Shown: one piece after another, positions 10,918 through 15,412 of the stretch
How the letters are laid out: each line of letters opens with the position of its first letter
Numbering within the stretch: the first letter of the stretch is position 1
The notes under the pieces: generated by a model
Seen by the model: the letters and a program-made list of their open reading frames with translations, nothing else
Told to the model about the DNA's origin: nothing
Databases searched by the model: none
Source: Oscillatoriophycideae cyanobacterium NC_groundwater_1537_Pr4_S-0.65um_50_18
GTDB taxonomy: Bacteria; Cyanobacteriota; Cyanobacteriia; Elainellales; Elainellaceae
Direction of reading: 5' to 3'
Length of the DNA stretch: 64,000 nucleotides
Assembly (NCBI GenBank): GCA_016208305.1
Contig: JACQYI010000006.1
Location: 620,001 to 684,000, forward strand
Position numbers and translations under genes: made by a program

Positions 10918-11679
10918 TTAGCTCTGTTTATCATCTTCAGTCGATCGCAAGCTAGGTTCTGGGCTTTCAGCTAGCTTGCCATCTTCCAGGTAAACGATCC
11001 GATCGGCAATATCCAAAATCCGGTTGTCATGCGTCACCATCAAAATAGTGCAGCTCTGTTCTCTCGCGAGTTTCTGCATCAAATTGACCACATCTCGACC
11101 CGATTGGCTGTCTAGAGCAGCCGTCGGCTCGTCGGCTAAGACGACTCTGGGATGGCTGACCAAAGCACGGGCGATCGCCACACGTTGTTTTTGGCCTCCA
11201 GAGAGATCATCTGGGTAATAATGCATTCGTTCTGCTAAACCCACGGCTTGCAGTAGGTCGGCGGCTCTGTTACGGGTTTCTAAAGCAGGGAGGTCATGCA
11301 GTTGCAGAGCCATTTGCACATTTTGCACAGCCGTTAAGCTCTTGAGCAAGTTGTGCGCCTGAAAAATATAGCCAATCTTGCGGCGCACTTGAATCAACTG
11401 CTCTGGGCTGGCTCCCTGAAGTTCCTGTCCTAAAAGCTGGAGGCTACCTTCTTGGGGCGATCGCAAGCCGCAGGTTAGGGTCAACAGCGTTGTTTTTCCA
11501 GAACCCGAAGGCCCGGTCATCAGCACAATTTCTCCTGGGTAAATATCCAGGTTGATGTCGAAGAGCACTTGTTTGCGTAACTGAGCTTGACCGAAGTAGT
11601 GATTGAGATGACGAACGGCAATAACGGGCGTTTTGGCGGCGATCGCTTCTGTTTCGGGAGCGTTTAAAGTATTTTGCAT
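10918..11679 (-). CDS. devA: DevA family ABC exporter ATPase
   Basis: 253 residues. Walker A TGPSGSGKTTLL (about 56-67), Q-loop IGYIFQAHNLLKSLT, signature DLSGGQKQRVAIARAL, Walker B VVLADEPTAALD, switch LMVTHD. It belongs to the MacB/LolD-like DevA group. With DevC (permease) and DevB (adaptor) it forms a tripartite exporter; the model system in Anabaena exports heterocyst glycolipids, but paralogues occur in non-heterocystous strains. Last gene of the minus-strand dev run, 36 nt after the small HTH gene. Confidence 0.93.
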   Translation of the reverse strand: MQNTLNAPETEAIAAKTPVIAVRHLNHYFGQAQLRKQVLFDINLDIYPGEIVLMTGPSGSGKTTLLTLTCGLRSPQEGSLQLLGQELQGASPEQLIQVRRKIGYIFQAHNLLKSLTAVQNVQMALQLHDLPALETRNRAADLLQAVGLAERMHYYPDDLSGGQKQRVAIARALVSHPRVVLADEPTAALDSQSGRDVVNLMQKLAREQSCTILMVTHDNRILDIADRIVYLEDGKLAESPEPSLRSTEDDKQS

Positions 11680-11715
11680 AGTGGCATTTGCGTTGTGAAA
11701 TACTCTTAAATTTGC

Positions 11716-11958
11716 TTAGATTAAGCCCTGCCGCAGTGCAAACACGGCGGCTTGCAGGCGATGCCCCACCCCAAATTTGCTGAGAATATTTCTGACGTGA
11801 GTTTTGACGGTGCCGAGGCTGAGATAGAGCGTTGCTGCAATTTCTGGATTGCTCTGCCCCTCTGCGACTAGCCGCAAGATTTCGAGTTCTCGGGGTGAGA
11901 GTTTAACGGGGGCGATCGCGGTTTCGGAAGGGTACATATGGGTTGTTCGCATGATCAT
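11716..11958 (-). CDS. Stand-alone LuxR/NarL-type HTH regulator
   Basis: 80 residues, essentially only a GerE/LuxR DNA-binding domain: LSPRELEILRLVAEGQSNPEIAATL, then SLGTVKTHVRNILSKFGV. There is no receiver or ligand domain. It sits between devC and devA with 36-nt gaps on each side, so it is almost certainly co-transcribed. Three in-frame ATGs (11958, 11952, 11937) are possible starts; none has a strong ribosome-binding site. It resembles small PedR-like regulators of cyanobacteria. Likely an autoregulator of this export operon; that is inference. Confidence 0.88.
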   Translation of the reverse strand: MIMRTTHMYPSETAIAPVKLSPRELEILRLVAEGQSNPEIAATLYLSLGTVKTHVRNILSKFGVGHRLQAAVFALRQGLI

Positions 11959-11994
11959 TATTTGAGGATCTCTCTGGGTATCTCTGGCGGTAAC

Positions 11995-13149
11995 TTAAAA
12001 AATATCGGCAGGATCGGCTGAACGAAGTTTGCGGGTGGCGATCGCACCTGAAGCAGTACACATTACAAGGGTCAAAACAAAAACGGTGGTTGCCCGTTCT
12101 AGGGTCATAAACAGCGGTAAGTTTGTCGCGCCTCTTGTGAGGGCATAGAGTCCTGTGGCGATCGCTGACCCCGGCAGATAGCCGAGTATGGCTAAGATTA
12201 ATGCTTCTTGAAACACGACCCCTAGCAGGTAAAGATTGCGATAGCCCATAGCTTTGAGCGTGGCATATTCGGCGGTGTGGTCGGCAACGTCATTAGAAAG
12301 AATTTGGTAAACAATCACGATACCGACAATGAAACCGATCGCTGTTCCTAAACTAAAAATGAAGCCGATTGGCGTATTGTTGGCCCAATAGTCTTCTTCG
12401 ACTTTGGCGAATTCGTCGCGGGTTAAGACTCTGACATCGTTGGGAAGGTTAGCGCGTAGGGTGGCGGCCATCTGCTGGGGATCAATGCCGGGTTCGAGTT
12501 TAATCAGTCCGGCGCTGATTTGGGCAGGGTGGCGATTGGGCAGGACGCGCAAAAAGTTGAGGTCACTGGTGATGACGTTACCATCTGCGGCAAAGGAGGC
12601 ACCGGAGAGGAATAGGCCGTTAATCTTGATCTTGCGATCGCCAATTTCAGTTGCAACGGGGTTTCCTTGTTTTAGGGTGGCTAGGGTGGTGGTGTAGTCT
12701 CCGCGTGAGCCGCTATCAAACAGGAAGGTGTCAGGCATTTTGAGTTTGCTGAGGTTCTGTTCGACTTCGGGTAGGCGAAAGGCGGACTGCTGTGGGTTAA
12801 ACCCAAGCATTAAAATGGAGGTTTTGAGGTGGGTTTGGGGATTTTTCCAGTCTACGTAGTCTGCGTAGAGGGGTTCGGCGGAGGCGATGCCGTCATAGCT
12901 GAGGGTTTGGTAGAGCCGTCGTCGGGGAAGGGTGGTGAGATTGGTGATGTTGCGAGCTTGAGGGCTGATTAGGATGAGATCGGCGTTGAGGCTGCGATGG
13001 AGTTGGGTGTTGCTGTCGTAAAGGGCGGTTTTGAAGCCGAGTTGCATGAACATCAGCATGTCGGCGAAGGCGATGCCGGCCATAGCGACGAGGAGCCGAC
13101 TTTTTTCTCGGCTGAGCTGAAGCCATGCGAGGGGGATGGTGCGTTTCAT
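11995..13149 (-). CDS. devC: DevC family ABC exporter permease
   Basis: 384 residues in a MacB/FtsX-like layout: an N-terminal helix (about 18-40) with LLVAMAGIAFADMLMFMQLGF, a long periplasmic domain (about 45-260), then three C-terminal helices (about 262-285, 310-335, 350-372). The start MKRTIPLAWLQLSREKSRLLVA is typical of DevC. It partners devA, despite the small regulator gene between them. Confidence 0.93.
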   Translation of the reverse strand: MKRTIPLAWLQLSREKSRLLVAMAGIAFADMLMFMQLGFKTALYDSNTQLHRSLNADLILISPQARNITNLTTLPRRRLYQTLSYDGIASAEPLYADYVDWKNPQTHLKTSILMLGFNPQQSAFRLPEVEQNLSKLKMPDTFLFDSGSRGDYTTTLATLKQGNPVATEIGDRKIKINGLFLSGASFAADGNVITSDLNFLRVLPNRHPAQISAGLIKLEPGIDPQQMAATLRANLPNDVRVLTRDEFAKVEEDYWANNTPIGFIFSLGTAIGFIVGIVIVYQILSNDVADHTAEYATLKAMGYRNLYLLGVVFQEALILAILGYLPGSAIATGLYALTRGATNLPLFMTLERATTVFVLTLVMCTASGAIATRKLRSADPADIF

Positions 13150-13240
13150 GGGTAAGAATTGGCTGGGTTAATGCGCTTGTTTGTGTTTTGGCGGGTGCGG
13201 TGTGTTTTTCTCAAGCATTATGTTGGGGTATGACTTGGCT

Positions 13241-13299
13241 AAGGCTGAACAGCCTTGGGGGTTTCCCCCAAACCCCCAGCAGGGGACGGGCGCGTCCCC
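13241..13299. repeat. Three adjacent hairpins, REP-like
   Basis: AAGGCTG-AA-CAGCCTT (13241-13256), TTGGGGG-TTT-CCCCCAA (13255-13271) and GGGGACG-GGCG-CGTCCCC (13282-13299) follow one another, all perfect stems. The arrangement of consecutive hairpins parallels the pair at 23594-23665, although the arms differ. Confidence 0.75.
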
Positions 13300-13483
13300 C
13301 ACACCCCCTCCGCATGGCGTTTGGGATGGGGATAAGGAGTCGCTTCGCATTGGCGGGGTGATCGGGCGTTGATTGGATTTGGGGATGCGTTGGAGGGTGA
13401 AGTAGGGGATCGATTGGGGAGAAGCGAAGGTGGGTTGGAAGTCTATTAGGAACGAGAACGAAATGAAACCGATATATCTGTAG

Positions 13484-13547
13484 GGGTTTAGCATTCGGCA
13501 GATGTGCCCTGGGTCGTAGCAAAGAGGGTTGCCTGAATGCTAAACCC
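13484..13547. repeat. Perfect 13-bp inverted repeat with 4-bp extension
   Basis: GGGTTTAGCATTC (13484-13496) pairs with GAATGCTAAACCC (13535-13547). GGCA/TGCC extends the stem across a one-base bulge, leaving a loop of about 29 nt. It could be an RNA structure in the dev transcript or the relic of a small mobile repeat. Confidence 0.65.
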
Positions 13548-13623
13548 TGACGCTTGAGGTTCCGGTGTTATTTAATCCACGAGCCTTAAAGTAGAATTTT
13601 CTGGATGCTTTTTAGGCATCTTT

Positions 13624-14709
13624 TTAGCGGGAGGGGGTGGCGATCGCTACTGTGACTTCTAGGTTGGTAAAGTTGGCGACTTTACGGGTGCTGGCGGGGT
13701 TAAGGCGAATTTTGACTTCGATGACTCTGGCGTCGGCGGCGGCGGTTGGGTCGGTGTCGAGTACGTCGTTTTTACGAATCTGTAAGCCAATTTGCTCGAC
13801 GGTACCTTGGGCTTCTCCGGTGAAGGCGCTGCTGGTGATTGTGGCGGGTTGCCCGATTTGCACGCGTTGAACATCGCTTTCGTAAACTTCGGCAACGGCG
13901 TACATTTGCTCGGTCTGACCGAGTTCGACGATGCCGTCACTGCCGACGATTTCTCCGGCCCAGGTATGAATTTTGAGGATTTGGCCGTTGCGGGGCGATC
14001 GCACATAGGCCAGATCTAGCTCGGCTTGGGCTTGCTGTACGGCGGCGAGGGCGTCGTTAACTTGGGCTTGGGCAGCCTGGATGTCAACGGGGCGAACTTC
14101 GGCAATGCTCTGAAGGGTCTGCTGGGCCTGCTGGACTTGGGCGGCGGCGGTTTCGGCAACTAATCGCTTGCTGTCGAGCGCGGAAATGGCGATCGCGCCT
14201 TCTTGATATAGCTTTTGGTATCGCTGATATTCGGTTTGGGCGTTGTCTAATTCTGCTTTTAGTCGGTCTACGGTGGCGGCTTGGGCGTCAATTTCTCCGG
14301 CTTTGGCTCCGGCTTCAACCTGGGCTAGCTGAGATTGTGCGACGCGCACTTGTTCTTGGGCTTTGAGCAAGGCGGCTTCTAGGCGATCGCGGCTATCTAA
14401 AATGGCAATCACTTGCCCCGTTTTGACTAAATCTCCTTGCTGCACCAAAAGCTGGGCGATTCGACTCCCGCTAGAAACTGCTAAATTGATCACTTCCCCT
14501 TTTGGCTCTAGTCGTCCTAATGCGGTTACAGCATTGGCTGCTGGGGCAGCGATGGGCGCGGCTGAGCCAGGTGCAGGTTGCGATGGGGAGGTAGTATAGA
14601 ACGCTGTGATGGCGATCGCGCCTCCTAAAGCGGCTGTTAAAATCCATTGCTGTGGCGATCGAGGCAGCAGTCTACGCACTAAGCTGGCTTCGGGATTTGC
14701 GGGTTGCAT
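13624..14709 (-). CDS. devB: DevB family membrane-fusion (HlyD-like) adaptor
   Basis: 361 residues. One N-terminal membrane anchor (about 20-42). Biotinyl-lipoyl half-motifs flank a long coiled coil (about 110-215, Ala/Gln-rich), then a beta-barrel section with AYVRSPRNGQILKIHTWAGE and VYESDVQRVQIGQPA. This is the periplasmic adaptor of the DevBCA exporter linking the inner-membrane DevCA to a TolC-like outer-membrane channel. First gene of the dev run, divergent from the PadR gene. Confidence 0.93.
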   Translation of the reverse strand: MQPANPEASLVRRLLPRSPQQWILTAALGGAIAITAFYTTSPSQPAPGSAAPIAAPAANAVTALGRLEPKGEVINLAVSSGSRIAQLLVQQGDLVKTGQVIAILDSRDRLEAALLKAQEQVRVAQSQLAQVEAGAKAGEIDAQAATVDRLKAELDNAQTEYQRYQKLYQEGAIAISALDSKRLVAETAAAQVQQAQQTLQSIAEVRPVDIQAAQAQVNDALAAVQQAQAELDLAYVRSPRNGQILKIHTWAGEIVGSDGIVELGQTEQMYAVAEVYESDVQRVQIGQPATITSSAFTGEAQGTVEQIGLQIRKNDVLDTDPTAAADARVIEVKIRLNPASTRKVANFTNLEVTVAIATPSR

Positions 14710-14810: not shown

Positions 14811-14853
14811 TATGCATATTTATGCATAGGAGTATATATGCAAAAAAATGCAT
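14811..14853. promoter_or_regulatory. ATGCAT-type repeats between devB and padR
   Basis: TATGCATA (14811-14818) recurs at 14821-14828 after a TT spacer, and ATGCA-A6-TGCAT follows at 14838-14853. PadR proteins bind AT-rich dyads of the general form ATG-N-CAT, so these are good candidates for the operator that silences both divergent genes. Binding is inferred. Confidence 0.65.
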
Positions 14854-14872
14854 TAGTCAAGGGTGAGGAGTC

Positions 14873-15412
14873 ATGGCTTTAGCACACGCACTTTTGGCTT
14901 CGCTGTTGGTAGATGGTGCCTGTAGCGGCTACGACTTAGTGAAGCGGTTTGATGAATCGATCAGCTGCTATTGGATGGCTTCCCATCAGCAAATTTATAA
15001 AGAGCTACGGGATCTGGAAAAGCAAGGCTGGGTCAGTTCTGAGACGATCGCACAAACGGGTCGTCCCAACAAAAATCTCTACAGTATTACTGCGTTAGGG
15101 CAAGAGCATTTAGCCCACTGGATCTTGACGCCTAGCGTGCCTACGGTCATCCGAGAGGATTTAATGATCAAGACGTTGGCGGGCTTTTTGGTGCCTAACT
15201 TGGCAATGCTGGATGAGCTAAAACGTCGCCGCCAAATTCATCTCGATAAGCTGGCGGTGCTTAAAGAAATAGAGCGTCAAGAATTCCCGCAGGTTGCTGC
15301 TCTGTCTCGTGAACAAAAGTTTTGCTACCTCTCTATCCGTCGTGGCATCCGCTATGAGGCAGACTGGGTGGCTTGGTGCGAAGAGGCGATCGCTCTACTG
15401 GCAGAAGAGTAA
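14873..15412 (+). CDS. PadR family transcriptional regulator
   Basis: 179 residues. N-terminal winged helix (about 5-85: ALLASLLVDGACSGYDL, HQQIYKELRDLEKQGWV, GRPNKNLYSITALG) followed by the helical C-terminal dimerisation domain usual in PadR subfamily 2 (about 95-179). A strong ribosome-binding site GGTGAGGAG (14862-14870) precedes the ATG. Divergent from devB over 163 nt that contain dyad repeats, so it is the likely repressor of the dev exporter and of itself. Confidence 0.93.
   Translation: MALAHALLASLLVDGACSGYDLVKRFDESISCYWMASHQQIYKELRDLEKQGWVSSETIAQTGRPNKNLYSITALGQEHLAHWILTPSVPTVIREDLMIKTLAGFLVPNLAMLDELKRRRQIHLDKLAVLKEIERQEFPQVAALSREQKFCYLSIRRGIRYEADWVAWCEEAIALLAEE

Follow-up and report, generated by a model that had tools for sequence, protein, structure and literature searches.

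A stand-alone LuxR/GerE-type HTH gene inside a cyanobacterial devBCA exporter operon, and its relatives in other exporter operons

In the window (the whole stretch of 64,000 nucleotides analysed here), an intact gene for an 80-residue protein consisting only of a LuxR/GerE-type helix-turn-helix (HTH) domain lies between devC and devA of a DevBCA exporter operon. The arrangement is true, modestly unusual and not unique. The protein is most likely an accessory GerE-like regulator recently gained in this species, and probably a small add-on regulator, not a one-off accident. HTH-only LuxR regulators, devBCA exporters and regulators encoded inside operons are each already known; our search of the open-licence literature on devBCA with LuxR, TetR or PadR, or on stand-alone cyanobacterial LuxR-type regulators, returned no description of HTH genes within devBCA.

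The exporter operon and its small HTH protein

The genes devB, devC and devA lie on the same strand, each above its family cut-off, and form a DevBCA exporter operon. The features of the locus are as follows.

14873-15412, plus strand: padR, PadR-family regulator divergent from devB (PF03551, 2.9e-13; PF10400, 1.1e-20)
14831-14860, minus strand: sigma-70-like promoter TTGACT-18-TATACT before devB (consensus match alone, 10/12)
14811-14828: perfect 7-4-7 palindrome TATGCATAAATATGCATA upstream of devB (position derived from its offset)
13624-14709, minus strand: devB, membrane fusion protein (TIGR02971, 346 bits)
13446-13589: dispersed repeat in the devB-devC gap
13237-13370: second dispersed repeat in the devB-devC gap
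11995-13149, minus strand: devC, permease (TIGR01185, 528 bits)
11959-11994, minus strand: devC-HTH gap, 36 nt
11716-11958, minus strand: HTH ORF of 80 codons, stand-alone LuxR/GerE-type protein without cysteine
11680-11715, minus strand: HTH-devA gap, 36 nt
10918-11679, minus strand: devA, ATPase (TIGR02982, 369 bits)

The HTH protein matched Pfam GerE (PF00196) over residues 19-74 with an E-value of 8.8e-20 (70.5 bits against a gathering cut-off of 23.5), and this is its sole domain. The ORF is not a chance one, given this score, relatives of up to 76% identity over the HTH core and a GC content of 0.535 compared to 0.526 for devC. Moreover, the protein carries all 16 invariant positions of a 25-row family alignment. 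An AlphaFold2 model (24 sequences; mean pLDDT 86.4, residue blocks within 21-80 at 92-98) predicted helices at residues 22-32, 37-44, 48-62 and 67-76, that is, the four-helix fold including the C-terminal helix, with the first 20 residues poorly defined. A Foldseek comparison with solved structures placed the DNA-binding domains of LiaR and VraR on top (rmsd mostly about 1.0), the best PDB match being that of LiaR (4wt0). NarL and GerE were also matched, several of the matched structures were solved with DNA, and a sequence search against the PDB agreed with this fold assignment. The window genome (G000) holds 30 matches to the HTH protein, most of them in frames longer than 180 aa, and there is no second match inside the 64-kb window.

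An HTH-only regulator is no oddity in itself, as GerE and PedR are known. GerE of Bacillus (PDB 1fse, 74 aa in the entry) is, like the window protein, HTH-only with the same four-helix fold, at 39-40% identity in the fold alignment; it plays a role in sporulation, and its gene is not known to lie inside an exporter operon. Among solved structures, the LiaR and VraR domains come closest (most fold alignments show 52-56% identity, a TVKTHV stretch being common to LiaR and the window protein), but these are C-terminal parts of response regulators, whereas the window protein stands alone. No receiver domain was matched in its 80 aa (open frame 92 aa), so it is not a NarL-type response regulator. 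The Pfam scan gave HTH-type models only, plus DUF742 below the cut-off, and with no autoinducer-binding domain among them the protein is neither a quorum-sensing LuxR nor a LuxR solo.

PedR (Ssl0564) of Synechocystis is described, in the accessible part of PMC13421787, as a small LuxR-type regulator acting on its own operon, whose redox switch works through Cys80 and an inter-subunit disulfide. In contrast, the window protein has no cysteine, which excludes a PedR-type thiol switch. We rejected its identification as PedR (NF052366) on this ground, on a score of 47.8 bits where the cut-off is 120, and because the true PedR of this genome (157.4 bits) is encoded elsewhere, at L018 (G000:C26:280432). 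That pedR gene is flanked by a histidyl-tRNA synthetase gene and by the gene of an ABC ATPase with 39% identity to DevA.

An earlier note on this DNA had described the HTH-only gene between devC and devA, the padR gene divergent from devB and the equal gaps around the HTH ORF, and all three agree exactly with the coordinates. The equality of the gaps looks coincidental, since the corresponding gaps differ in two other operons of the same gene order (L120 and L216). No terminator-like site occurs inside either gap. What did not stand is the claim that the gene must share its mRNA with the exporter genes, which is too strong; the intact HTH-only protein in the operon and the two regulator families were borne out. 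The note had overlooked a gap of 474 nt between devB and devC (13150-13623), where a search against the own genome recognised the two dispersed repeats. The first has 15 further genome places of at least 100 bases, 13 of them at 91-97% identity, and the second has 19 further partial matches at 76-94% identity. This gap measures -4 to 247 nt in near relatives (L079-L088) and up to 718 nt in other devBCA lineages of our census. Co-transcription of devC, the HTH gene and devA with devB is thus plausible but not certain.

Upstream of devB, the palindrome TATGCATAAATATGCATA is possibly a PadR operator, judging from its position. Sigma-70-like sites, such as the one before devB, number four in the region compared to 3.6 expected, which is no better than chance.

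The exporter itself resembles known systems. DevBCA of Anabaena and its paralogues belong to the same three exporter families; the accessible text of PMC8277102 assigns the paralogues Alr4280/1/2 and Alr3647/8/9 to drug resistance and describes devB, devC and devA as one operon, with no HTH gene mentioned there as lying within it. On plasmid pSYLA of Synechocystis PCC 6714, a PadR gene is divergent from the membrane-fusion gene, devC and devA, as in the window, but the operon has no annotated HTH gene and its devC-devA gap is 23 nt.

HTH genes in other devBCA operons

To count such arrangements, we ran a census guided by devC: a search of 388 genomes of the class gave devC matches at E ≤ 1e-110 in 265 of them. 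We read 103 distinct places among the roughly 155 devC matches listed (devA in view at 89 and not at 14); the searches scored at most four candidates per genome, so that paralogues are undercounted. An HTH gene lay between devC and devA at four of the 103 loci, namely the window (L078) and L215, L216 and L217, which represent three genomes of one other genus (g44). In those gaps of the census that were examined, a profile search detected no further HTH. The order devB-devC-HTH-devA was also found in G050 (L120), which figures among the listed devC matches too but was read separately and left out of the count. As for the earlier proposal to count devBCA loci with an HTH gene in this position, the layout does recur; on the other side, the gene is missing from the window's nearest relatives and broken in one of the eight related cassettes.

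Searches guided by the HTH revealed a further slot, between devB and devC, at L115 (G012), L117 and L118/L139 (G003, of the same genus as the window genome), L129 (Nostoc sp. FACHB-892) and L145. This devB-HTH-devC clade was selected via its HTH, and when the DevC of L117 was searched in the 388 genomes, half of its relatives had none: among 16 places in 14 genomes, the HTH lay between devB and devC in seven, between devC and devA in one (L294, G028) and was absent from eight.

Six of these loci (L304-L308 and L129) share a cassette of the order TMEM175-devB-HTH-devC-devA, and five of them also encode SfLAP between devC and devA. All six carry, divergent from the exporter operon, genes for a histidine kinase and a NarL-type response regulator (domains checked for the L129 pair). 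The same kind of kinase and regulator occurs at L309, but there the HTH lies between devC and devA; at L117, a P450 gene takes the place of the pair upstream. The HTHs of L117, L118, L129 and L304-L307 share a conserved cysteine in their N-terminal part (position 16 or the corresponding residue), which the window protein lacks; one of them contains a further cysteine.

The operons that bear an HTH gene thus adjoin different regulators: PadR in the window, TetR at L120, L215-L217, L115 and L145, and the NarL-type pair in the cassettes. That a single exporter has regulators from two families, as the earlier note had pointed out for PadR and the HTH protein, is a theme that recurs with TetR.

We then asked how often HTH genes of this kind would fall beside devC by chance. 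With the window HTH as sole query in 60 relatives, 24 matches had an open frame of at most 130 aa, and 4 of the 23 other than the window's own were at a dev operon (G050, G012 and two near-identical copies in G003). For a random gene the expectation is about 1-2% (10-20 devC copies per 6 Mb), giving P values from 8e-5 to 1e-3; with the G003 near-copies counted once (3/22), P is 0.001 to 0.01. In a control against response regulators from the same survey, 4 of 23 short frames compared to 0 of 16 long frames gave p 0.11 (16 of the 23 long rows were read). Among 80 loci retrieved with an alignment of dev-linked HTHs (A1), 3 of 7 short and 0 of 73 long frames were within 2.5 kb of devC (p 4e-4). 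Without L139, itself a row of A1, the figures are 2/6 and 0/73 (p 0.005), and the query still leans to dev-linked HTHs. The HTH-devC link is real as anatomy, and a preference of such HTH genes for the neighbourhood of devC is moderately supported.

Stand-alone HTH genes were also seen in other surroundings. Closely similar ones at L109, L111, L112, L125, L126 and L128 are away from dev, each near a SnoaL-like gene, and some genomes have several short HTH genes. DUF2834 genes (L114, L124, L313, L314) lie beside stand-alone HTH genes and also between devB and devC in HTH-less operons. The N-terminus of the stand-alone HTH frame at L037 looks, by eye, like that of a short-chain dehydrogenase, as though the frame were a fusion or had been given a wrong start.

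Gain, spread and selection

In a midpoint-rooted DevC tree (FastTree, 109 sequences, L294 absent), HTH-bearing operons occupied three places. The window operon was nested among HTH-less relatives; G050 and the three g44 genomes fell in one clade (0.98), which also has HTH-less members; the devB-HTH-devC group formed the third place. In the devBCA operons closest to that of the window, padR is retained but the HTH gene is missing, which makes the latter look recently added here: padR is divergent from devB in the HTH-less G508, G181, G032, G498 and G570, and in the near relative G150 the sequence ends 274 nt past devC, with devA out of view. These comparisons, together with pSYLA, suggest that padR-devBCA is the older arrangement and that the HTH gene joined the window operon later.

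The HTH domains themselves were compared in a tree of 76 domains, where 21 of the 23 stand-alone HTHs away from dev and all 13 dev-linked rows clustered together, separate from the 39 long-frame HTHs (support 89/91, on 62 columns only and with the bootstrap not settled). A single clade of all HTHs lying between devC and devA gave a p-AU of 0.48 on these 62 columns.

The cassettes point to horizontal transfer of a mobile unit, as their DevC proteins are 89-96% identical to that of L117 in other genomes of four families, and the copy in G584 lies on a 1.2-Mb plasmid record of Kovacikia minuta CCNUW1. In the G550 cassette (L308, 5065-5277), internal stops disrupt the HTH gene, whereas matches to the surrounding exporter genes still extend over their length, so that the HTH gene appears not to be needed for the pump. 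This is the only broken copy among eight cassettes (seven from the L117-DevC search, plus L129).

To estimate constraint, dN/dS was calculated by the Nei-Gojobori method for seven cassette HTH copies (two from G003, the broken one excluded). The mean was about 0.29 over 21 pairs, every pair being below 0.5. The other cassette genes gave 0.13 for devB, 0.09 for devC, 0.12 for devA and 0.21 for SfLAP (six copies), and the HTH in the cassettes was constrained two- to threefold less than the exporter genes. In the three g44 genomes, values were 0.18-0.40 for the HTH compared to 0.04-0.07 for devB and devC. Purifying selection thus acts on the HTH in two related groups, the cassettes and g44, the window copy itself having no close orthologue. 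These values indicate that related HTH proteins remain under functional constraint, though a looser one than that on the pump.

Candidate function and alternatives

Given that the HTH gene occurs beside three kinds of local regulator and in two slots, its function is likely independent of any one partner. The HTH alone is the common part of these operons, which favours an autonomous DNA-binding role with the dose set by operon transcription. We therefore lean, at slightly under an even chance, to a sensorless GerE-like DNA-binding protein whose amount follows operon transcription and which feeds back on devBCA or a related promoter. The protein would be complete, presumably a dimer through its C-terminal helix, and lacks a sensor domain. 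Made from inside the operon, its amount would track operon transcription, assuming co-transcription; the earlier suggestion that it reports operon expression is in this sense plausible. It would most likely act as a feedback regulator, either amplifier or brake, on devBCA or a related stress or efflux promoter, while PadR, or elsewhere TetR or a NarL-type two-component system, would supply the signal input. The intact domain, seen in sequence and predicted fold, the repeated presence in devBCA operons, more frequent than for a random gene, and the purifying selection in two related groups are the evidence for this explanation; PedR provides a cyanobacterial precedent of a small LuxR-type protein that regulates the operon encoding it. 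Counted against it are the nearest relatives without the gene, the broken G550 copy, the weaker selection, the p of 0.11 in the response-regulator control and the binding site: a shared operator was not detected in the dev operons that carry the HTH, nor was any site for the HTH protein.

This last result also speaks for a real transcription factor with targets elsewhere, to which the dev operon would give just a co-expression signal. We consider such a role unlikely, yet deserving serious weight, as 19 of the 24 relatives with frames of at most 130 aa lie away from dev (some contexts covering 1.5 kb per side), several of them near TetR, DUF2834, TMEM175 or SnoaL-like genes. It fits less well with the HTH recurring at two positions of a single type of exporter operon, more often than expected of a random gene.

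The one shared element that we did find, an ATGACA-nn-TGTCAT palindrome, lies upstream in each of the six cassettes, and L309 has one like it. Together with the divergent NarL-type regulator and kinase at these seven loci, and with the window genome's matches lying mostly in frames above 180 aa, it would suit a protein that acts with or against a full-length NarL/LuxR response regulator, through mixed dimers or competition for operators. The element is absent at L117 despite the HTH there (one strand scanned), which makes it more likely a response-regulator site, and in the window its five matches with at most two mismatches do not exceed chance (6.9 expected); both points weigh against the feedback explanation. 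Against the partnership, the window has no other HTH match of its genome, the stretches examined at L117, L120, L215-L217 and L115 gave no full-length NarL-type match, and the recognition helices differ (VKTHV and VRNYI). We regard such a partnership as improbable, slightly more so than a neutral origin, in which the gene would be a recent insertion from a dispersed mini-HTH family, so far without effect. The HTH-less closest relatives, the two dispersed repeats that also entered this operon and the broken relative in G550 speak for neutrality, to which we nevertheless give a small probability, given the intact ORF with its invariant positions kept and the purifying selection on related copies. 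The 65% identity to the HTH of a response regulator in its own genome might suggest a leftover C-terminal end of such a protein. This origin is disfavoured and very improbable, since the 36 nt between the HTH ORF and devC leave no room for a receiver remnant, and the tree separates 34 stand-alone HTHs from the 39 with long frames, on a short alignment and with an unsettled bootstrap.

Beyond the window, we tentatively propose, as a rather doubtful generalisation, that cyanobacteria may possess a family of exchangeable HTH-only mini-regulators of about 71-80 aa, repeatedly recruited to exporter operons in different slots and under different primary regulators, which would convert expression into a DNA-binding signal. 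If true, the repeated association of a sensorless HTH with a single type of exporter, regardless of which sensor regulator controls the promoter, would be a compact natural test case of sensor-free feedback in efflux control, the HTH gene being a plug-in feedback part with expression as its only input.
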